Below are positions 2,984 to 13,892 of a stretch of 64,000 nt of DNA, piece by piece. Under the pieces are notes generated by a model. That model was given only the letters and a program-made list of their open reading frames with translations, made no database searches and was not told where the DNA came from. The stretch comes from Hymenobacter chitinivorans DSM 11115. GTDB lineage: Bacteria; Bacteroidota; Bacteroidia; Cytophagales; Hymenobacteraceae. The stretch lies in NCBI RefSeq assembly GCF_002797555.1, contig NZ_PGFA01000003.1, forward strand, positions 62,001 to 126,000, read 5' to 3'. The translations under genes were made by a program, and so were the position numbers. Position 1 is the first letter of the stretch. Each line of letters begins with the position of its first letter.

Positions 2984-3016
2984 CGCGTCCGCCCGGTGCA
3001 GGACCGGGCGGACGCG
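2984..3016. other. perfect 13-bp-stem hairpin beside array 1
   Basis: CGCGTCCGCCCGG (2984-2996) is exactly complementary to CCGGGCGGACGCG (3004-3016), with a seven-base loop. On the minus strand the stem is followed by TTATTTT, so it may terminate transcription entering the sigma promoter region, or be an RNA structure tied to the array. The rest of this intergenic stretch (3017-3229) shows no gene. Confidence 0.6.
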
Positions 3017-3229
3017 GGTGCGCCAGGATGTAAACTGCTTGTGGCGCAAACTACACCGTTCGCGCTACTGCGCTATTGGACGAGTTGCCGAATTTCAGGG
3101 CTCCGCTGTAGTAGTCAGCAAGATAGAAGAATCCGGCCGGGGCCAAAATTTATTTGCGGGCGGTATGGAATCCGGGCCGGGTCGGCATCAGCACTGGTGA
3201 AACCTTCCTCATCACCGTCGTCTGATTGT

Positions 3230-5236
3230 ATGAACAAGATCCTCCTTCTCGGCCTGGGCGGCTTGCTGGCCCTGCCCGCCGTTGCGCAGCAGACTACCAC
3301 GCCGCCGGCCCCGCGCCCCCGGCAGTCGGCCCCGATAGCCACCCCGCGCACCCTCACGGGCCGCATCCTCGCCGACGGTACCAACCAGGGGCTGCCGGGG
3401 GCTACCATCGTGGTAAAAGGCACGAATGTGGGAGCGACAAGCAACTCTGCGGGCACGTATCGACTCCTTATGCCAGCGGGCCACGATACGCTGGTGGTCA
3501 GCGCCCTGGGCTACCAGTCCCGGCAGGTGCGCGCGCCGAAAAAGGGCCCGCTCACCATTCGTCTGACCCACGAAGGCACGCAATTGAGTGAAGTCGTCGT
3601 TACGGGGTATGGCACCGAGCAAGTTCGGCGGTCCGTAAGCGGCTCCGTGTCGCAGGTACAGGGGTTGGAAGGCAAGGTAGCCGGGGTGGTCATTCAGCAA
3701 CAGCCATCGGCGGGGAGGATGCGGAAAAGTAAAGCCCAACGGAATGCACCTGTTGCAGCAGATGTATTCTACGATTCGGCGCCTCCCCGCCCTGCGCCGG
3801 GCCCGGGCGAGTCGTACGCCGCCATCCACGACAACGGCTTCCACTCGGCCCAGCAAGAACCCCTGAGCACGTTTTCCATCGACGTGGACGCGGCCAGCTA
3901 CTCCAACGTGCGACGCTTCCTCAACCAGGGCCAGCGTCCACCCCAGGACGCGGTGCGGGTGGAGGAAATGCTCAACTACTTCCATTACGACTATCCCCAG
4001 CCCACCGGCCCCGACCCGGTTTCCATCACCACCGAGCTGGCCGTCTGCCCCTGGAACCCCGACCACCAGCTGCTGCACGTGGCCCTGCAGGGCCGGCAGG
4101 TGAGTACTGCGAAGCTGCCGCCCGCCAACCTGGTATTTCTGGTGGATGTATCGGGCTCCATGGCTGAACCAGCTAAGCTGCCGCTGGTGCAGGCCGGTCT
4201 GCGCCAGCTGGTGCACGAGCTGCGGCCCCAGGACAAGGTAGCCCTGGTGGTGTACGCCGGGGCGGCCGGCCTGGTGCTGCCCGCCACCCCCGGCAACCAG
4301 CAGGAAACCATTCTGGCCGCGCTGGACCGGCTGGAGGCCGGCGGCTCCACGGCCGGCGGCCAGGGCCTACGCCTGGCGTATCAGGTAGCCCGGCAGCAGT
4401 TTCAGAAAGAAGGTAACAACCGCGTGATTCTGGCTACCGACGGCGACTTCAACGTGGGGGAAAGCAGCGACGAGGCCATGGAGCGGCTTATTACCGAGGA
4501 GCGGGAATCGGGCGTGTTCCTGACCGTGCTGGGCGTGGGCCAGGGCAACTTGCAGGACAGTAAGATGGAGCGGCTGGCTGATAAGGGCAACGGCAATTAT
4601 GCCTACCTCGACAACCTCGACGAAGCCCGGCGGGTGCTGGTCCGGCAGTTCGGCGGCACACTCTTCACCCTGGCCAAGGACGTGAAGCTGCAGCTCGAGT
4701 TCAACCCCGCCCGGGTGCAGCAATACCGCCTCATTGGCTACGAAAACCGTGCCCTGGCCGATGAGGACTTCAACAATGACCGCAAAGACGCCGGGGAGCT
4801 GGGAGCGGGTCACACCGTCACGGCCCTCTACGAGCTGATTCCGCCCGGTGCCCCCACCGGCCTCGACCCGCTCAAGTACCAGCCCAACCCCGCGCCCGCG
4901 CCGCCTGCCCCCGCCTCGGCCGACCTGATGACGGTAAAGCTGCGCTACAAGGAACCCCAGGGCAACACCAGCAAGCTGCTGGAGCGCACCCTGCGCGGTG
5001 CGGCCGTACCCGTGGCTCAAGCCTCCGCCAATCTACGCTTCGCCGCCGCCGTGGCCCAGTTCGGCATGCTGCTGCGCCAGTCGGACTACCGCGGCACGGC
5101 TACCTACGACAGCACTGCCAAACTGGCCCAGCAGGCCCGCGGCCAGGATGCCGACGGCTACCGCGCCGAGTTTGTGCGCCTGGTCAAGCTGGCCGAGGGG
5201 CTGAGTCTGGTCACGGGCACCGTGGGCGTGCGTTAA
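3230..5236 (+). CDS. vWA-domain (YfbK-like) protein with CarboxypepD_reg and plug-like N-terminus
   Basis: A 668-residue exported protein. Order: signal peptide (about 1-20, ending AVAQQ), a CarboxypepD_reg-like beta-sandwich (about 40-118), a short stretch resembling the start of a SusC/TonB plug (VVVTGYGTEQVRRSVSG, about 121-160) with no barrel behind it, the vWF_A N-terminal region (PLSTFSIDVDAASYSNVRRF), a vWA domain with the metal-site motif DVSGSM at about residue 305, and a YfbK-type C-terminal region. It probably mediates metal-dependent protein contacts at the cell surface; the partner is unknown. The ATG at 3230 gives a clean signal peptide. It is paralogous to the lipoprotein at 6658 and lies divergent from the sigma/anti-sigma pair, a common Bacteroidota neighbourhood. 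Confidence 0.85.
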   Translation: MNKILLLGLGGLLALPAVAQQTTTPPAPRPRQSAPIATPRTLTGRILADGTNQGLPGATIVVKGTNVGATSNSAGTYRLLMPAGHDTLVVSALGYQSRQVRAPKKGPLTIRLTHEGTQLSEVVVTGYGTEQVRRSVSGSVSQVQGLEGKVAGVVIQQQPSAGRMRKSKAQRNAPVAADVFYDSAPPRPAPGPGESYAAIHDNGFHSAQQEPLSTFSIDVDAASYSNVRRFLNQGQRPPQDAVRVEEMLNYFHYDYPQPTGPDPVSITTELAVCPWNPDHQLLHVALQGRQVSTAKLPPANLVFLVDVSGSMAEPAKLPLVQAGLRQLVHELRPQDKVALVVYAGAAGLVLPATPGNQQETILAALDRLEAGGSTAGGQGLRLAYQVARQQFQKEGNNRVILATDGDFNVGESSDEAMERLITEERESGVFLTVLGVGQGNLQDSKMERLADKGNGNYAYLDNLDEARRVLVRQFGGTLFTLAKDVKLQLEFNPARVQQYRLIGYENRALADEDFNNDRKDAGELGAGHTVTALYELIPPGAPTGLDPLKYQPNPAPAPPAPASADLMTVKLRYKEPQGNTSKLLERTLRGAAVPVAQASANLRFAAAVAQFGMLLRQSDYRGTATYDSTAKLAQQARGQDADGYRAEFVRLVKLAEGLSLVTGTVGVR

Positions 5237-6657: not shown

Positions 6658-8289
6658 ATGTCGATATTCCGCTTGCGCCCCCTGTGGCTGCTGGCCGGCG
6701 GCTTGCTGCTGCCCGCCTGCCAACAAAAACAATCTACCGAGCCTCTCGAGCAGGCCAGCGTTTACGAGCAGCTGCCCCCGGCCGAGCCCCAGCTGGATGA
6801 AGCTCCGCCCGCGCCGGCCAACGCCGAAACCTACGCCCGGCTGCCCGAAAACCGCTTCGAGGACGTGCGCCAAACGCCGCTGAGCACCTTCGCCATCGAC
6901 GTAGACCCAGCCTCTTATAGTAATGTGCGGCGCTTCCTGACCCAGAACCGCCAGCTGCCCCCGCCCGAAGCCGTGCGGGTCGAGGAGCTCATCAACTACT
7001 TTCACTACGACTACCCCCAGCCCCGCTCCTCCGACGCCCCGGCCACGCTGAACGCCGAAGTGGCCCGCTGCCCCTGGAACCCCGCCCACCGGCTGGTACT
7101 GGTGGGGGTGCAGGGCCGCGAAGTAGCCACCCGGGCACTGCCGCCGGCCAACCTGGTTTTCCTGCTCGACGTGTCGGGCTCGATGAACGACGAGGACAAG
7201 CTGCCCCTGCTCAAGGCCAGCCTGCGCCAGCTGGTGCACACGCTGCGGCCCCAGGACTACGTTTCTATTGTAGTATATGCCGGGGCGGCGGGCCTGGTGC
7301 TGCCGCCCACGCCCGGCAGCCAGCCCCAGCAGATCCTGGCAGCCCTGGATAATCTGGAAGCCGGCGGCTCCACGGCGGGCGGCGAAGGGCTGCGTCTGGC
7401 CTACCAGGTGGCCCGGCAGCAGGCCCGCCCCGGCTCCAACACCCGCATCATCCTGGCCACCGACGGCGACTTCAACGTGGGAGAAAGCTCGGACGAGGCC
7501 ATGGAGCAGCTCGTGACCCAGGAGCGGCAGTCGGGCGTGTTTTTGTCGGTGCTGGGCTTCGGGGAAGGCAACCTGCAGGACAGCAAGATGGAGGTGCTGG
7601 CCGACAAAGGCAACGGCAACTATGCCTACATCGACAACCTGAACGAGGCCCGGCGGGTGCTGGTCCAGCAATTTGGCGGCACGCTATTTACCCTGGCCCA
7701 GGACGTGAAAGTGCAGGTCGAGTTCAACCCCGCCCAGGTAGCGCAGTACCGCCTCATCGGCTACGAAAACCGCCTGCTGGCCGCCGAGGATTTCAACGAC
7801 GATACCAAGGATGCCGGGGAGCTGGGCGCGGGCCAGCAAGTCACGGCCCTCTACGAAATTGTGCCCGCCAACACCCGCCCCGCCGTCGACCCGCTCAAGT
7901 ACCAGTCTTCCCCGGGCGTTGCTACTGATTACGGCCCAGTTTCCGCCGCCAGCGCCGAGCTGCTTACCGTAAAGCTGCGCTACCAGGAACCCCAAGGCAG
8001 TGTTAGCCGCCTGCTCAAGCTGCCCGTGCGCAATTCCGACACCGGCGTGGAGCAGGCCTCCGACAACCTGCGCCTGGCCGCGGCCGTGGCCGAGTTTGGG
8101 CTGCTGCTGCGGCAGTCGGAACACCGGGGCACGGCCAGCTACGCGGCGGCCGGGCAGCTGGCGCAGTCGGTGCGCGGCCGGGACGCGGACGGCTCCCGCC
8201 GGGAATTTGCGGAGCTGGTGCGGCAGGCTGGTGAGCTAAGCAGTGAAGTCGCCCAAGCCTTGCCCGAGGAGCAGTGGAGCTACCGGTAA
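6658..8289 (+). CDS. vWA-domain (YfbK-like) lipoprotein
   Basis: A 543-residue lipoprotein: the signal peptide ends in a lipobox (LLLPAC, Cys at about 20), followed by a Pro/Glu-rich linker, the vWF_A N-terminal region (PLSTFAIDVDPASYSNVRRF), a vWA domain with DVSGSM at about residue 171, and a YfbK-type C-terminal part. It is clearly paralogous to the protein at 3230, with shared blocks such as GNGNYAY, RRVLVQQFGGTLFTLA and DAGELGAG. Unlike that paralogue it has no CarboxypepD_reg or plug-like section and uses a lipid anchor. Probably a surface or periplasmic binding protein; the ligand is unknown. Confidence 0.87.
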   Translation: MSIFRLRPLWLLAGGLLLPACQQKQSTEPLEQASVYEQLPPAEPQLDEAPPAPANAETYARLPENRFEDVRQTPLSTFAIDVDPASYSNVRRFLTQNRQLPPPEAVRVEELINYFHYDYPQPRSSDAPATLNAEVARCPWNPAHRLVLVGVQGREVATRALPPANLVFLLDVSGSMNDEDKLPLLKASLRQLVHTLRPQDYVSIVVYAGAAGLVLPPTPGSQPQQILAALDNLEAGGSTAGGEGLRLAYQVARQQARPGSNTRIILATDGDFNVGESSDEAMEQLVTQERQSGVFLSVLGFGEGNLQDSKMEVLADKGNGNYAYIDNLNEARRVLVQQFGGTLFTLAQDVKVQVEFNPAQVAQYRLIGYENRLLAAEDFNDDTKDAGELGAGQQVTALYEIVPANTRPAVDPLKYQSSPGVATDYGPVSAASAELLTVKLRYQEPQGSVSRLLKLPVRNSDTGVEQASDNLRLAAAVAEFGLLLRQSEHRGTASYAAAGQLAQSVRGRDADGSRREFAELVRQAGELSSEVAQALPEEQWSYR

Positions 8290-8353: not shown

Positions 8354-8412
8354 TTTGTTCGTATAACCCGGCAAAATTTAATTTGGAATTACCAGAACCT
8401 GGTCCCACCTTG
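8354..8412 (+). promoter_or_regulatory. candidate Bacteroidota promoter(s) for the aromatic operon leader
   Basis: TTTG at 8354-8357 is followed after 21 bases by TAATTTG (8379-8385). That TTTG (8382-8385) in turn lies 20 bases before CACCTTG (8406-8412). Either pair approximates the TTTG / TAnnTTTG promoter, and the second would start RNA about 20 bases before the first leader peptide. Neither is a perfect match. Confidence 0.4.
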
Positions 8413-8435
8413 CCCTCACAAAGCACCTGATTCTC

Positions 8436-8495
8436 ATGTCGCAGCACACCGGCCGCTTCTTTTTTAGCTATTACTTCTACTACGCCCACGCGTAG
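8436..8495 (+). CDS. aromatic leader peptide 1 (attenuator)
   Basis: A 19-codon open frame, MSQHTGRFFFSYYFYYAHA, contains four Phe and four Tyr in a run of nine residues, the signature of a transcription-attenuation leader for Phe/Tyr synthesis genes. Its stop codon overlaps GTCGAG (8495-8500), which can pair with CTCGAC (8542-8547) in the 5' half of the downstream terminator. Ribosome position on the aromatic codons could therefore decide whether the terminator forms. The operon downstream makes phenylalanine and tyrosine, which supports the assignment. Translation is inferred. Confidence 0.8.
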   Translation: MSQHTGRFFFSYYFYYAHA

Positions 8496-8534
8496 TCGAG
8501 CGGCCCTCCTGTAGCTTTTCCAACCGAAACTCTC

Positions 8535-8569
8535 AGCGCCTCTCGACAACCTCGGGAGGCGCTTTTTTT
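8535..8569 (+). terminator. attenuator terminator 1
   Basis: AGCGCCTC (8535-8542) pairs with GAGGCGCT (8556-8563), and the last T begins a run of seven T (8563-8569). It lies 40 bases after the stop of leader peptide 1, and its 5' arm overlaps the competing pairing segment CTCGAC. Confidence 0.85.
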
Positions 8570-8590
8570 ACGCTTACTTTTCCGCTTCAC

Positions 8591-8671
8591 ATGCCCGCTT
8601 CCGTCTTCTTTTATTACGGCTACTATTACTTCTTCTTTACGAAGAAGCGGGGCCCCGTTTGCCAGAGCTGA
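8591..8671 (+). CDS. aromatic leader peptide 2 (attenuator)
   Basis: A second open frame, 26 codons long, starts MPASVFFYYGYYYFFFT and holds five Phe and five Tyr within eleven residues. It lies between terminator 1 and terminator 2, so transcripts that escape the first attenuator meet a second one. Within its 3' part, GCGGGGCC (8647-8654) is exactly complementary to GGCCCCGC (8700-8707) in the 5' arm of terminator 2: a textbook antiterminator pairing. Two aromatic leaders in series are unusual. Translation is inferred. Confidence 0.8.
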   Translation: MPASVFFYYGYYYFFFTKKRGPVCQS

Positions 8672-8698
8672 CCGAAGCGCAGCACCAGAAGCAAAACC

Positions 8699-8726
8699 AG
8701 GCCCCGCACTCCGGAGGCCTTTTTTT
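8699..8726 (+). terminator. attenuator terminator 2
   Basis: AGGCC (8699-8703) pairs with GGCCT (8716-8720), and CCG (8704-8706) pairs with CGG (8712-8714) across one bulged A; seven T follow (8720-8726). It ends 24 bases before the preferred pheA start. GGCCCCGC in its 5' arm can instead pair with GCGGGGCC at 8647-8654. Confidence 0.8.
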
Positions 8727-8750
8727 ATGTCTTTCCCTAGCACCCGCACC

Positions 8751-9584
8751 ATGCTTTCCACCGTCGCCATTCAGGGCTTTGAAGGTAGTTTCCACCAGAT
8801 TGCCGCCCGCCACTACTTCGGCCCCACGGCCCTGACGACGCCCTGCGCCACGTTTGGGGAAGTGGTGCGGCAAGTGAGCAGCGGCACGGCCGGGCACGGA
8901 CTCATGGCCATTGAAAACTCCATTGCCGGCAGCATTTTGCCCAACTACAACCTGCTGCGCCAAGCCGGCCTGCGCGTGACCGGGGAAGTGTACCTGCAGA
9001 TCCGCCAGCACCTGATGGCCTTGCCCGGCCAGCAGCTCGACGATATCCGGGAGGTGCACTCCCACCCCATGGCCCTGCTGCAGTGCGCCGACTTTCTCAA
9101 CCAGCACGGCCCCTGGCGCCTGGTCGAAACCGAGGACACGGCCCTGAGTGCCCAGCGCATCCGGGAAGGGCTGCGCACCGGCACCGCCGCCGTGGCCGGC
9201 AAGCTGGCCGCCGAGCTGTTCGACCTCGAAATCCTGGCCAAGGACATTCACTCCGAAAAGAAAAACTACACCCGCTTCCTGGTGGTGGACCGGCCCGAAA
9301 ACGCGGCGGCCGTGGAAGCACCCAATAAGGCCTCGCTCTACTTCCACACTACCCACGCCCAGGGCAGCCTGGCCCAGGTTCTGATCCGCATTGCCGACCA
9401 GGGCATCAACCTCTCCAAGCTCCAGTCCTTCCCGATTCCGGCCAAAACCTGGCACTACTACTTCCACGCCGACCTTGAATTCGACGACCCGGCCCAGCTC
9501 GAAGCTGCTTTGCAGGCCATGAAGCCGGTAACCGAAGGCCTCGAAGTGCTGGGCATCTACCACAAAGGCACCACGCACAAGTAA
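8751..9584 (+). CDS. pheA: prephenate dehydratase
   Basis: A 277-residue cytoplasmic enzyme that converts prephenate to phenylpyruvate. The catalytic domain shows IQGFEGSFHQIAA, the substrate-binding ENSIAGS and the TRFLVVDR motif. An ACT domain follows from about residue 190 (SLYFHTTHAQGSLAQVL). The usual ESRP feedback motif is QSFP here (NLSKLQSFPIP), so Phe inhibition may differ. I prefer ATG 8751 to ATG 8727, because 8727 begins at the T-tract of terminator 2 and adds only MSFPSTRT. It is the first gene of the aromatic operon and is preceded by the double attenuator. Confidence 0.9.
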   Translation: MLSTVAIQGFEGSFHQIAARHYFGPTALTTPCATFGEVVRQVSSGTAGHGLMAIENSIAGSILPNYNLLRQAGLRVTGEVYLQIRQHLMALPGQQLDDIREVHSHPMALLQCADFLNQHGPWRLVETEDTALSAQRIREGLRTGTAAVAGKLAAELFDLEILAKDIHSEKKNYTRFLVVDRPENAAAVEAPNKASLYFHTTHAQGSLAQVLIRIADQGINLSKLQSFPIPAKTWHYYFHADLEFDDPAQLEAALQAMKPVTEGLEVLGIYHKGTTHK

Positions 9585-9766: not shown

Positions 9767-10951
9767 ATGCAAGTCTCCGTAGCCAGCCGCCTCCAGCACA
9801 CCCAGGAGTATTACTTCTCCCGCAAGCTGCGCGAAATCGACGCTATGAACAAGGCCGGGGCCCAGGTTATCAACCTCGGTATCGGCAGCCCCGACATGCC
9901 GCCCCACCCGCGGGTAATTGCGGCCCTGAATCAGGCTGCCACTCAGCCCAACACTCACGCCTACCAGAACTACAAGGGCGTGCCGGCCCTGCGCCAGGCC
10001 ATGGCCGGCTGGTATGAGCGCAGCTACGGCGTCACGCTGGACCCCGAAACGGAAGTGCTGCCCCTGCTGGGCTCCAAGGAAGGCATCATCCACGTGAGCA
10101 TGACTTTCCTGGAAGCCGGCGACGAAGTGCTGATTCCCAACCCCGGCTACCCCGCCTACCGCGCCGCCGCCCACCTGGCCGGCGCCACGCCCGTCGACTA
10201 CGACCTGACGGCCGAAAACAACTGGCTGCCCGACCTGGAGCAGTTGGCCCAGCGCGACCTAAGCCGGGTGAAGCTGATGTGGGTCAACTACCCCCACATG
10301 CCCACCGGCACCCCGCCCGACGCCGCTTTCTTTGTCCGACTGGTGGCCTTTGCCACCGAGCATAATATCCTGCTGGTCCACGATAATCCTTACAGCTTCA
10401 TCCTCAACCAGGAGCCGGCCCAGAGTCTGCTGGCCGTGCCCGGGGCCCGGGAAGTGGTGCTGGAACTCAACTCGTTGAGCAAGTCGCACAATATGGCCGG
10501 CTGGCGCGTGGGCATGCTCCTGGGCCGCGCCGACCTATTGCAGGAAGTGCTGCGCTTCAAGAGCAACCTCGACTCGGGCATGTTCCTGCCGGTGCAGCTG
10601 GCCGCCGTGGAAGCCCTGAGCCTCGATGAAACCTGGTACCAGGAGCTCAACGCCCACTACGCCGCCCGCCGGGAGCTGGTCTTTGAGCTGCTCGACACCA
10701 TCGGCTGCCGCTACGAGCGAAACCAGGTGGGCCTCTTCGTGTGGGCTGCTATTCCGGCCGGCTACCCCGACGGCTACGCCCTGAGCGACGAGCTTCTGCA
10801 CGCGGCCAAGGTCTTCCTTACTCCCGGCGGCATCTTCGGCTCCAACGGCAACGGCTTCATCCGCGTCAGCCTCTGCCAAACCACTGCGGTACTGGAACAA
10901 GCTTTAACCCGAATCAAAGGTGAAATGGTGAGTGGTGAGATGGTGAGTTGA
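9767..10951 (+). CDS. class I/II PLP-dependent aminotransferase of the aromatic operon
   Basis: A fold-type I aminotransferase of 394 residues, cytoplasmic. The PLP lysine lies in NSLSKSHNMAGWR, and the N-terminal NLGIGSPDMPPHP and NPGYPAYR segments match the family. Relatives include LL-diaminopimelate and aromatic aminotransferases; its place between pheA and tyrA suggests transamination of phenylpyruvate or 4-hydroxyphenylpyruvate (inference). The last codons (GEMVSGEMVS) are encoded by the iterated word GGTGAAATGGTGAGTGGTGAGATGGTGAGT, so the natural C-terminus was probably near RIKG and has been extended by repeat sequence. Confidence 0.85.
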   Translation: MQVSVASRLQHTQEYYFSRKLREIDAMNKAGAQVINLGIGSPDMPPHPRVIAALNQAATQPNTHAYQNYKGVPALRQAMAGWYERSYGVTLDPETEVLPLLGSKEGIIHVSMTFLEAGDEVLIPNPGYPAYRAAAHLAGATPVDYDLTAENNWLPDLEQLAQRDLSRVKLMWVNYPHMPTGTPPDAAFFVRLVAFATEHNILLVHDNPYSFILNQEPAQSLLAVPGAREVVLELNSLSKSHNMAGWRVGMLLGRADLLQEVLRFKSNLDSGMFLPVQLAAVEALSLDETWYQELNAHYAARRELVFELLDTIGCRYERNQVGLFVWAAIPAGYPDGYALSDELLHAAKVFLTPGGIFGSNGNGFIRVSLCQTTAVLEQALTRIKGEMVSGEMVS

Positions 10952-11028
10952 CGTTTTTAATGCGCGGTTCTGCGCCAGTCGAACATCAAACTCACCATTT
11001 CACCAGTTCACCATCTCACCACTTCACA
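10918..11028. repeat. word-repeat inverted pair (GGTGARATGGTGA)
   Basis: The left arm, 10918-10950, is built of GGTGAAAT / GGTGAGTG / GGTGAGAT words. The right arm, 10989-11028, is the reverse-complement kind (CTCACCATTTCACC, CACCATCTCACC). The left arm contains the aminotransferase stop; the right arm ends at the tyrA start. Confidence 0.75.
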
Positions 11029-11871
11029 ATGGTAGTAACGATAATAGGCCTAGGATTAATCGGCGGCTCGTTGGCCATCAGCCTCAAGGCTAAGGGCCTG
11101 GCCCAGCACGTCATCGGTGTGGACCACAGCCCCGAAAACCTCCGCAAAGCCCAGGACCTACACCTCATCGACGAAGGCACTACCGACCTGCCCGAAGCCG
11201 TGCGCCGCGCCGACCTGGTAGTCGTAGCCGTGCCCATGGATGCCATGCTCACCGTGCTGCCCCAGGTGCTCGACGAAGCCGACCAGCAGGTCGTCATCGA
11301 CGTGGGCTCCACCAAATCCATGCTGCTGGCGGCCGTGGCCCAGCACCCGTGCCGGGGCCGCTTCGTGGCCGTGCACCCCATGGCCGGCACCGAGTACTCC
11401 GGCCCCGAAGCCGCCGTGCCCGAGCTGTTTACCGATAAAACCCTGGTCATCTGCGACGCCGAGCAGAGCGACGCCGATGCCGTCAACAAGGTACAGCGCC
11501 TGTTCGAGCAGCTCCAGATGCGCATCGAATACCTCGACGCCGCCGCCCACGACCTGCACACGGCCTACGTCTCGCACATTTCGCACATTACCTCCTTTGC
11601 CCTGGCCCTCACCGTGCTGGAAAAGGAAAAAGAAGAGCAGCAGATCTTTGCCCTGGCCAGCGGCGGCTTCGCCTCCACCGTGCGCCTGGCCAAAAGCTCC
11701 CCCGACATGTGGGTGCCCATCTTCCGCCAAAACCGCGTCAACGTCCTCGACGTGCTCGACGAGCACATCCACCAGCTCCAGCACCTGCGCCACCTCATCG
11801 CCCAGGAAGACTACCCCGCCGTCTACCAGCAAATCCAGCAAGCCAACCTGATAAAGAAGATTCTGAAGTAA
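11029..11871 (+). CDS. tyrA: prephenate dehydrogenase
   Basis: A 280-residue NAD(P)-dependent enzyme that oxidises prephenate to 4-hydroxyphenylpyruvate. The N-terminal Rossmann motif is GLGLIGGS (residues 7-14), and the prephenate dehydrogenase motif HPMAGTEYSGP lies near residue 120. The helical C-terminal domain (TAYVSHISHITSFAL) matches the family. ATG 11029 directly precedes VVTIIGLG; the open frame upstream is only translated word repeat. No ACT domain is visible. Third gene of the aromatic operon. Confidence 0.92.
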   Translation: MVVTIIGLGLIGGSLAISLKAKGLAQHVIGVDHSPENLRKAQDLHLIDEGTTDLPEAVRRADLVVVAVPMDAMLTVLPQVLDEADQQVVIDVGSTKSMLLAAVAQHPCRGRFVAVHPMAGTEYSGPEAAVPELFTDKTLVICDAEQSDADAVNKVQRLFEQLQMRIEYLDAAAHDLHTAYVSHISHITSFALALTVLEKEKEEQQIFALASGGFASTVRLAKSSPDMWVPIFRQNRVNVLDVLDEHIHQLQHLRHLIAQEDYPAVYQQIQQANLIKKILK

Positions 11872-12163: not shown

Positions 12164-13234
12164 ATGCAATCCGCACTCTTCAACCGCCAGCCCGACGACA
12201 AGCCCTACCTCATTTCCGGCCCGTGCTCGGCCGAAACCGAGGAGCAGGTTCTCGAAACCTGCCAGCGCCTGGCCGCCACCGGCAAGGTGCAAGCCCTGCG
12301 CGCCGGCATCTGGAAGCCCCGCACCAAGCCCGGCGGCTTCGAAGGCATCGGCACCAAAGGCCTGCCCTGGCTCAAGAAAGCCGGCGAACTGACCGGCCTG
12401 CCCATTGCTGTGGAAGTGGCCACGGCCAAGCATGTGGAAGACTGCCTGGCTTTCGGCGTCGATATTCTGTGGGTAGGCGCCCGCACCACCGGCAACCCCT
12501 TCTCGGTCCAGGAAATTGCCAACGTGCTGCGCGGCGTCCAGGTACCGGTGCTCGTCAAGAACCCGATTCACCCCGAGCTCGAGCTCTGGGCCGGGGCCGT
12601 GGAGCGCCTCCAAAAGGCCGGTCTGAGCCAGGTGGGCCTCATTCACCGGGGCTTCAGCTCCTACGGCAACACCGATTTCCGCAACGCCCCGATGTGGCAC
12701 CTGCCCATCGAAATGAAGCGCCGCCACCCCGACCTGCCCCTGCTCTGCGACCCCAGCCACATCTGCGGCCGCCGCGACACCCTGGCCGCCGTGGCCCAGC
12801 AGGCCCTCAACCTGGGCTTCGACGGCAACATGATTGAAAGCCACATCGACCCCGACAACGCCTGGAGCGACGCCAAGCAGCAAATCACCCCCGAGGTGCT
12901 CCGCGACCTGATCCGGGACCTGGTGTGGCGCCACGAAACCACCAACCAGCGCGAATTCCTGACGGCCCTCTCCAGCCTGCGCGAGCAAATCAACCAGCTC
13001 GATGCCGAAATCATCCAGCTCCTGGGCCGCCGCATGGCCGTGGCCGAGAAAATCGGGGTCTACAAGAAGGAAAACGACATCACCATCCTCCAGACCGGCC
13101 GCTGGAACGAGGTCCTGGAGCGGGCCCAGCGCCAGGGCAGCTCCGTCGGCCTCACCCCGGAGTTTATCGAGCAGTACTTTGCCGCCGTCCACCTGGAGTC
13201 CATCAACCACCAGAACAAGGTGATGGAAGGCTAA
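12164..13234 (+). CDS. bifunctional DAHP synthase / chorismate mutase
   Basis: A 356-residue cytoplasmic enzyme. Residues about 1-260 are a type I-beta DAHP synthase (first shikimate-pathway step, from PEP and erythrose-4-phosphate), with ISGPCSAE, GIWKPRTKPGGFEG and the metal-site DPSHICGRRD. Residues about 265-350 are an AroQ-type chorismate mutase (LREQINQLDAEIIQLLGRRM ... IGVYKKEN), which converts chorismate to prephenate. Entry to the pathway and the branch toward Phe/Tyr are therefore in one protein, at the end of the pheA-tyrA operon. This fusion is common in Bacteroidota. Confidence 0.92.
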   Translation: MQSALFNRQPDDKPYLISGPCSAETEEQVLETCQRLAATGKVQALRAGIWKPRTKPGGFEGIGTKGLPWLKKAGELTGLPIAVEVATAKHVEDCLAFGVDILWVGARTTGNPFSVQEIANVLRGVQVPVLVKNPIHPELELWAGAVERLQKAGLSQVGLIHRGFSSYGNTDFRNAPMWHLPIEMKRRHPDLPLLCDPSHICGRRDTLAAVAQQALNLGFDGNMIESHIDPDNAWSDAKQQITPEVLRDLIRDLVWRHETTNQREFLTALSSLREQINQLDAEIIQLLGRRMAVAEKIGVYKKENDITILQTGRWNEVLERAQRQGSSVGLTPEFIEQYFAAVHLESINHQNKVMEG

Positions 13235-13368
13235 CCAGGGCCGCGTTGTGCACGCTCATGTGGAGACGCAACCTCGCCTCTCCCCGTTGAACAACTCTGC
13301 CAGCAGGAATAGGGTAGGATGATTCAGCTCCGCCCGACCGACAAGACGCAACCATGCGTCGCTACCCC

Positions 13369-13406
13369 AAGCCGCCCTTCGCTGCCCGCCAGCGAAGGGC
13401 GGCTTT
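13369..13406 (+). terminator. terminator of the aromatic operon
   Basis: AAGCCGCCCTTCGCTG (13369-13384) is exactly complementary to CAGCGAAGGGCGGCTT (13390-13405) around a five-base loop. Only TTT then CC follows, so the tail is short but the stem is very strong. Confidence 0.8.
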
Positions 13407-13451
13407 CCTATAGAAGGGCCCACCCCGACCTGTTCGAAGCCCGCTCAAAAC

Positions 13452-13682
13452 CCTTAGGAGCCGCCCTTCAGGCTTTAGGAACCGTACTTCAGCCTTTAGG
13501 AGCCGTACTTCAGGCTTTAGGAATCATACTTCAGCCTTTAGGAACCATACTTCAGGCTTTAGGAGCCTCACTTCAGCCTTTAGGAACCGCACTTCAGGCG
13601 TTAGTAGCCCTACTTCAAGCTTTAGGAACCGCACTTCAGGCTTTAGGAGTCCCGTCAACGACTTTAGGAGCCTTACCAACGC
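13452..13682. repeat. 21-bp degenerate tandem repeat array 2 (11 units)
   Basis: Eleven units of exactly 21 bases start at 13452 and every 21 bases to 13662. The consensus is CTTTAGGA, five variable bases, then ACTTCAGG or ACTTCAGC. The last base alternates G and C over the first seven units, so the true period may be 42. The final two units diverge in their second half. The array follows the aromatic operon terminator and ends 210 bases before the acyltransferase start. No cas genes are nearby, and the unit is too short for CRISPR. Confidence 0.92.
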
Positions 13683-13892
13683 TCTACAAATCGGGCTCAG
13701 GCCGGCAGATTGCGGGTAAAAAGTCGTTTTGTTAGACATATACTCCCCGCGCTTCAGAAAGGAATTGCTGGTTTTATGGCCAGACAGCGCCCAAACCGCC
13801 CTCCTAGCGTCAGACTTTTCAAAAACCGCCCACCCACCGCCTATCCGGCCCGTTTCATTGTCCGGCTCCGAGAATTGGCCGTACTTAGGCCC

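Follow-up and report, generated by a model that had tools for sequence, protein, structure and literature searches.

Introduction

The attenuators of enterobacteria (trpL, hisL and pheL) place a short leader ORF containing codons for the product amino acid, an intrinsic terminator and a competing antiterminator before a biosynthetic operon. Modelling indicates that single attenuators can be hyper-sensitive (PMC1183508). Two leader ORFs in series are described in Salmonella, where mgtM and mgtP both act on the transcription of one operon, mgtCBR (PMC3641672). These two gates respond to different signals, ATP and proline, and they lack hairpins resembling intrinsic terminators; their authors call this tandem arrangement a "singular example" (PMC3641672). 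The same article cites tandem riboswitches, for instance Bacillus clausii metE, which constitute two transcription-terminating RNA gates in series (PMC3641672). Among Bacteroidota, one general sentence in the main text of a study on Flavobacterium psychrophilum suggests leader-peptide attenuation ahead of amino-acid operons, and it describes no tandem arrangement (PMC9723704).

We analyzed the region upstream of pheA in a 64 kb stretch of DNA (hereafter the window) that is part of contig C3 in the 5.87 Mb genome of Hymenobacter chitinivorans. Its sequence suggests that the leader at 8382-8750 is a tandem ribosome-mediated transcription attenuator, with two attenuators in series that would each sense a shortage of Phe and/or Tyr, a reading to which we assign a probability of roughly 0.87. 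The leader is built like those of trpL, hisL and pheL, but it contains two complete gates, mixes Phe and Tyr codons, carries its second antiterminator inside an ORF and has no match to the leader families of Rfam. The closest precedent that we found is mgtCBR, which likewise has two leader ORFs in series, but both gates of the pheA leader carry Phe/Tyr codons and intrinsic terminators. Whereas the aptamers of metE bind their ligands directly, translation of the leader ORFs would be the sensor here. The single Phe/Tyr leaders of pheA in Cytophagales and Chitinophagaceae share the gene, the operon and the kind of leader and terminator, but have one gate only. Since leader-peptide attenuation was already suggested in a member of the same phylum, what is new is the tandem arrangement of same-signal gates, both with an intrinsic terminator; our literature search, which missed most subscription journals, turned up no description of a pair of amino-acid attenuators that act in series on the same signal.

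Results

Organization of the pheA leader

The features of the leader and of the operon are as follows, in window coordinates:

8382-8413, + strand: likely promoter, with TTTGG at 8382-8386 (-33-like) and CACCTTGC at 8406-8413 (-7-like)
8436-8495, + strand: leader ORF 1, peptide MSQHTGRFFFSYYFYYAHA followed by a stop, with 4 Phe and 4 Tyr
8481-8495, + strand: small hairpin, TACGC/GCGTA, lying between the final Tyr codon and the leader-1 stop, possibly a pause or '1:2' hairpin
8491-8508, + strand: 5' arm of antiterminator 1, core GTCGAGCGGC at 8495-8504, overlapping the leader-1 stop codon and pairing with the 5' arm of terminator 1
8535-8569, + strand: intrinsic terminator 1, 12-bp stem at 8535-8563 (-21.5 kcal/mol) and T-tract to 8569
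8591-8671, + strand: leader ORF 2, peptide MPASVFFYYGYYYFFFTKKRGPVCQS followed by a stop, with 5 Phe and 5 Tyr
8646-8655, + strand: 5' arm of antiterminator 2, core GCGGGGCC at 8647-8654, inside leader ORF 2
8656-8696, + strand: inner helix of antiterminator 2, formed by TTTGC close to the leader-2 stop and GCAAA ahead of terminator 2
8699-8726, + strand: intrinsic terminator 2, stem AGGCCCCGCACTCCGGAGGCCT at 8699-8720 (-11.8 kcal/mol) and T-tract to 8726
8727-9584, + strand: pheA (prephenate dehydratase), ATG at 8727 or 8751, first gene of the controlled operon
9767-10951, + strand: aminotransferase gene, named from operon context and our reading of the sequence; gene order is the same in relatives
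10948-11871, + strand: tyrA-like prephenate dehydrogenase, named in the same way
12164-13234, + strand: DAHP synthase/chorismate mutase, named in the same way

The leaders, with their Phe/Tyr counts, match the first-pass annotation of this DNA base for base, and both terminators lie where it had placed them. The two pairings that it had singled out are exact complements: GTCGAG (8495-8500) with CTCGAC (8542-8547), which extends to GTCGAGcGGC/GCCtCTCGAC (9 pairs, one mismatch), and GCGGGGCC (8647-8654) with GGCCCCGC (8700-8707). The arm of antiterminator 2 begins 10 nt past the start of the last Phe codon and lies 23 nt ahead of the leader-2 stop. Apart from leaders 1 and 2, neither strand of the 64 kb window has an ATG ORF that combines a length of 30 aa or less with 8 or more Phe/Tyr. 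When positions 8354-8750 were shuffled 1500 times with dinucleotides preserved, such an ORF was found in 2 shuffles and an ORF with a terminator in 0.

The pair formed by TTTGG and CACCTTGC, whose second box ends ~22 nt 5' of leader 1, is a more likely promoter than a TTTG at 8354: both boxes are kept across Hymenobacter loci, while the remaining upstream DNA drifts. We take this pair to be like the -33/-7 promoter of Bacteroidota; a scan for sigma-70 promoters returned no match, as expected for this phylum.

The operon is flanked by two other features. Upstream of the leader, the adjacent genes at 2996-5236 and 6658-8289 encode closely similar proteins (YSNVRRFL, DVSGSM and NGNYAY are shared) and are apparently tandem paralogs. 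Past the operon, an ORF at 13319-13735 contains a degenerate LGA/LQALGT repeat.

Distribution of the leader among relatives

We identified pheA in 106 of 120 genomes of the same genus. The other 14 genomes (G001, G003, G006, G020 and 10 more) presented no match at E <= 1e-30, and they could either possess a different pheA or be Phe auxotrophs. The upstream regions of 104 loci from the genus and 4 from a neighbouring genus constitute our set of 108 loci, referred to as the Hymenobacter group. Leader ORFs rich in codons for the products of the operon (8 and 10 Phe/Tyr in the window) are a conserved trait of these 108 loci. Two complete leader-terminator modules were detected in 80/108 loci by automatic criteria and in 85/108 after inspection, which added three intact loci (L005, L031 and L095) and two with a damaged second leader (L045 and L104). 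A single module, always of the module-1 type, was found in 23/108 loci that form two groups, MLQPTARFFFSYYFYYLPGSRAAVL-like and MFSNRYFFGFYYFTPPA-like. H. amundsenii and H. piscis are species with one gate, and H. perfusus is a relative with two.

Two Phe/Tyr leaders were also found in all 30 Chitinophaga loci, where leader 1 usually contains one additional Trp codon; the terminator scan identified gate 1 in 23/30 of these loci and gate 2 in 12/30. A single Phe/Tyr leader is present in 27/28 other Chitinophagaceae, in other Hymenobacteraceae and in several Cytophagales. Hymenobacter and Chitinophagaceae loci of sufficient length retain the order pheA, aminotransferase, tyrA and DAHP synthase/chorismate mutase, with the exception of L189, in which tyrA was not detected. 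The idea of a two-gate attenuator governing the whole Phe/Tyr operon, first raised from the letters of the window, fits this conserved order. The prediction that aromatic codons and stem complementarity would be kept while other bases drift was borne out across the 108 Hymenobacter-group and 30 Chitinophaga loci.

Codon and RNA structure evolution

Nearly every unique sequence encodes Phe or Tyr at the aromatic positions of the leaders, and the two interchange freely. Column 10 of the 17-residue leader 1 contains 22 Tyr and 18 Phe, and column 16 of leader 2 contains 20 Phe and 13 Tyr. Other positions are more constrained: all 45 unique sequences of the 19-aa leader 1 have TAC as codon 16, and 31 of 33 sequences of leader 2 have Phe at column 15. 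The third positions of aromatic codons alternate between T and C, which are synonymous changes, and the N-terminal residues of the leaders drift. Together, the exchanges between Phe and Tyr, the third-position changes and the N-terminal drift indicate selection for aromatic codons and not merely for a U-rich RNA. The exchanges also favour the view that a shortage of either amino acid could trigger either gate.

We further analyzed the pairings of each gate. Terminator 1 was seen in nearly all loci, with compensatory changes at 6 pairs. Covariation reached 0.196 for the gate-1 terminator relative to 0.116 in shuffles and 0.119 for the gate-2 terminator relative to 0.074 (0/500 shuffles as high in both cases), with controls that, like the permutations below, remove the relatedness among loci only partly. 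For the antiterminators, one locus was retained per type of terminator arm, partners were permuted and duplex energies were averaged. The duplex of an antiterminator with its own terminator averaged -15.7 kcal/mol at gate 1 against -12.0 when permuted, and -16.2 against -14.7 kcal/mol at gate 2 (0/5000 permutations in both cases). The compensatory types seen among clades at gate 1 include GTCGAG/CTCGAC, AACGAG/CTCGTT, GTCGGG/CCCGAC and GCAGCGAGGCC/GCCTCCTGC. Antiterminator 1 was judged from duplexes and permutations and not from alignment columns, because MAFFT misplaces the gap between its types. For antiterminator 2, the inner helix pairs better with its own partner than with permuted ones (0/3000), and column-based covariation was weaker (4/500 shuffles; 75% of cells paired). 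The TACGC/GCGTA hairpin of leader 1 is paired in 89% of cells across 30 diverse loci, with little variation, and its counterpart in leader 2 yielded a weak signal.

Ribosome geometry

At both gates, a mutually exclusive antiterminator is positioned relative to the control codons. Its pairing starts mostly 10-16 nt past the first base of the last aromatic codon at gate 1 and mostly 10-13 nt past it at gate 2, which is where the leading edge of a stalled ribosome would lie. We folded only the RNA ahead of a ribosome positioned on the last aromatic codon (edge 15), and the probability of the antiterminator exceeded 0.5 in 79/80 loci at gate 1 and in 76/80 loci at gate 2. Folding with a masked ribosome, which allows pairs to form across the ribosome, gave an unrealistic result for gate 2 and was replaced by this procedure.

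The two gates differ with a ribosome at the stop codon. At gate 1 this ribosome covers 85% of the antiterminator arm, whereas at gate 2 it leaves ~67% of the arm uncovered behind it. Because the gate-2 arm lies inside the ORF, a ribosome that finishes translation would cross it and end between both arms, and with this much of the arm uncovered, termination would need steric or kinetic separation.

Leaders of other amino-acid operons

In the H. chitinivorans genome, the trp operon presents one leader, MTFHVTQQAWWWPLRNSGRENLCVR, and a terminator, GAAAGCCCGGCCGCCCGCCGGGCTTTT, ahead of trpE (L208; G000:C1, upstream of 1303912). One candidate His-rich leader ORF, ...RAAHHHLHGHHSS, ending in HHHLHGHHSS, precedes hisG (L203; G000:C1, upstream of 2162510), and similar His-rich ORFs are found ahead of hisG in relatives and in Chitinophaga. 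No leader of the threonine and ilvD operons was found with the filters used. The single trp and his leaders suggest that this organism makes general use of attenuation; of the operons checked, only pheA showed a doubled leader.

Origin of the tandem leader

The pheA proteins of Hymenobacter are 61-65% identical to those of Chitinophaga and about 36-47% identical to those of other Hymenobacteraceae, and this closer relatedness suggests a transfer between lineages. The pheA operon (window 8751-9584; L182-L185, L196) was likely transferred between orders and carried its leader with it. The tandem state corresponds to three changes on the pheA tree, which leaves the order of its deepest branches open. 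These changes would fit one gain on the branch of Chitinophaga and Hymenobacter and two losses inside Hymenobacter. The single Phe/Tyr gate found in the outgroups is the probable ancestral state.

Another gene of the operon varies in its own way. Between Hymenobacter species (L160-L164 and L171 relative to L165-L170 and L172), the identity of DAHP synthase/chorismate mutase (window 12164-13234) falls abruptly, from 93-97% to about 73%, while pheA differs gradually there. This jump possibly represents a gene replacement.

Discussion

Both gates are conserved in most of the genus and in Chitinophaga, and therefore transcription of the operon probably passes two amino-acid-sensing gates and not the usual one. 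RNA polymerase would meet the gates one after the other, and at each of them a ribosome would translate a leader rich in Phe and Tyr. A shortage of charged tRNA-Phe or tRNA-Tyr would stall the ribosome on the aromatic run with its leading edge just short of the antiterminator arm; the freed arm would then pair with the 5' arm of the terminator about to form, and the polymerase would read on. With both tRNAs plentiful, the ribosome of gate 1 would rest on the stop codon and cover the arm, while the ribosome of gate 2 would cross the arm within the ORF and reach a stop between the arms, so that the terminator of each gate would form. The operon would be expressed only when both gates are passed, which would multiply repression and sharpen the response. 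We see even odds for a fuller version of this proposal: a same-signal cascade of two stages unlike in design (stop-codon occlusion at gate 1, passage over an in-ORF arm at gate 2), which would multiply to an ultrasensitive and deeply repressible Phe/Tyr response, would be common to Chitinophaga and Hymenobacter together with the operon itself, and would have been cut to one gate twice within Hymenobacter.

The gates do not appear to sense different signals as those of mgtCBR do, since both leaders mix Phe and Tyr codons. It is nonetheless conceivable that they are specialised, with gate 1 responding mainly to Tyr (its run ends in FYY) and gate 2 mainly to Phe (FFF), and that the operon computes a logical combination of the two. 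The invariant TAC of leader 1 and the nearly invariant Phe at column 15 of leader 2 are what this would predict, but that TAC is also part of the conserved hairpin, the adjacent column 16 of leader 2 is split between Phe and Tyr, both runs mix the two residues, and exchange is common elsewhere. We consider such specialisation unlikely. It is less likely still, and in our view quite improbable, that one gate alone attenuates while the other is vestigial or terminates transcription constitutively. The 23 single-gate loci do manage with one gate, and the second leader is damaged in L045 and L104; however, most of the genus shows constraint on the leaders, terminators and antiterminators of both gates, Chitinophaga has both leaders throughout, and a second terminator that acted constitutively would keep the operon silent.

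The region could also be no attenuator at all but a conserved U-rich untranslated sequence, a small RNA or a source of small functional peptides. Our Rfam search identified no leader, T-box or riboswitch family and returned only sub-threshold matches to suhB, SNORA77 and isrD. The suhB (mmgR) match at 8496-8577, which spans terminator 1, could point to a small RNA, but it scores 32 bits relative to a gathering score of 41 and was rejected as a resemblance to a terminator hairpin with its U-tract. Moreover, this explanation accounts neither for the codon-wise Phe/Tyr exchanges and silent changes, nor for the position ahead of a Phe/Tyr operon, nor for the coevolution of the antiterminators, and we regard it as extremely improbable.

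If the pheA leader works as proposed, attenuators of the classical leader-peptide kind can be stacked, and such a stack is stable across two genera that belong to different orders. The relatives with one gate make the effect of the second gate directly testable, in terms of dynamic range, sharpness and discrimination between Phe and Tyr. More generally, these results put ribosome-mediated amino-acid attenuation in Bacteroidota on firm sequence evidence; the searchable literature barely describes it in this phylum.
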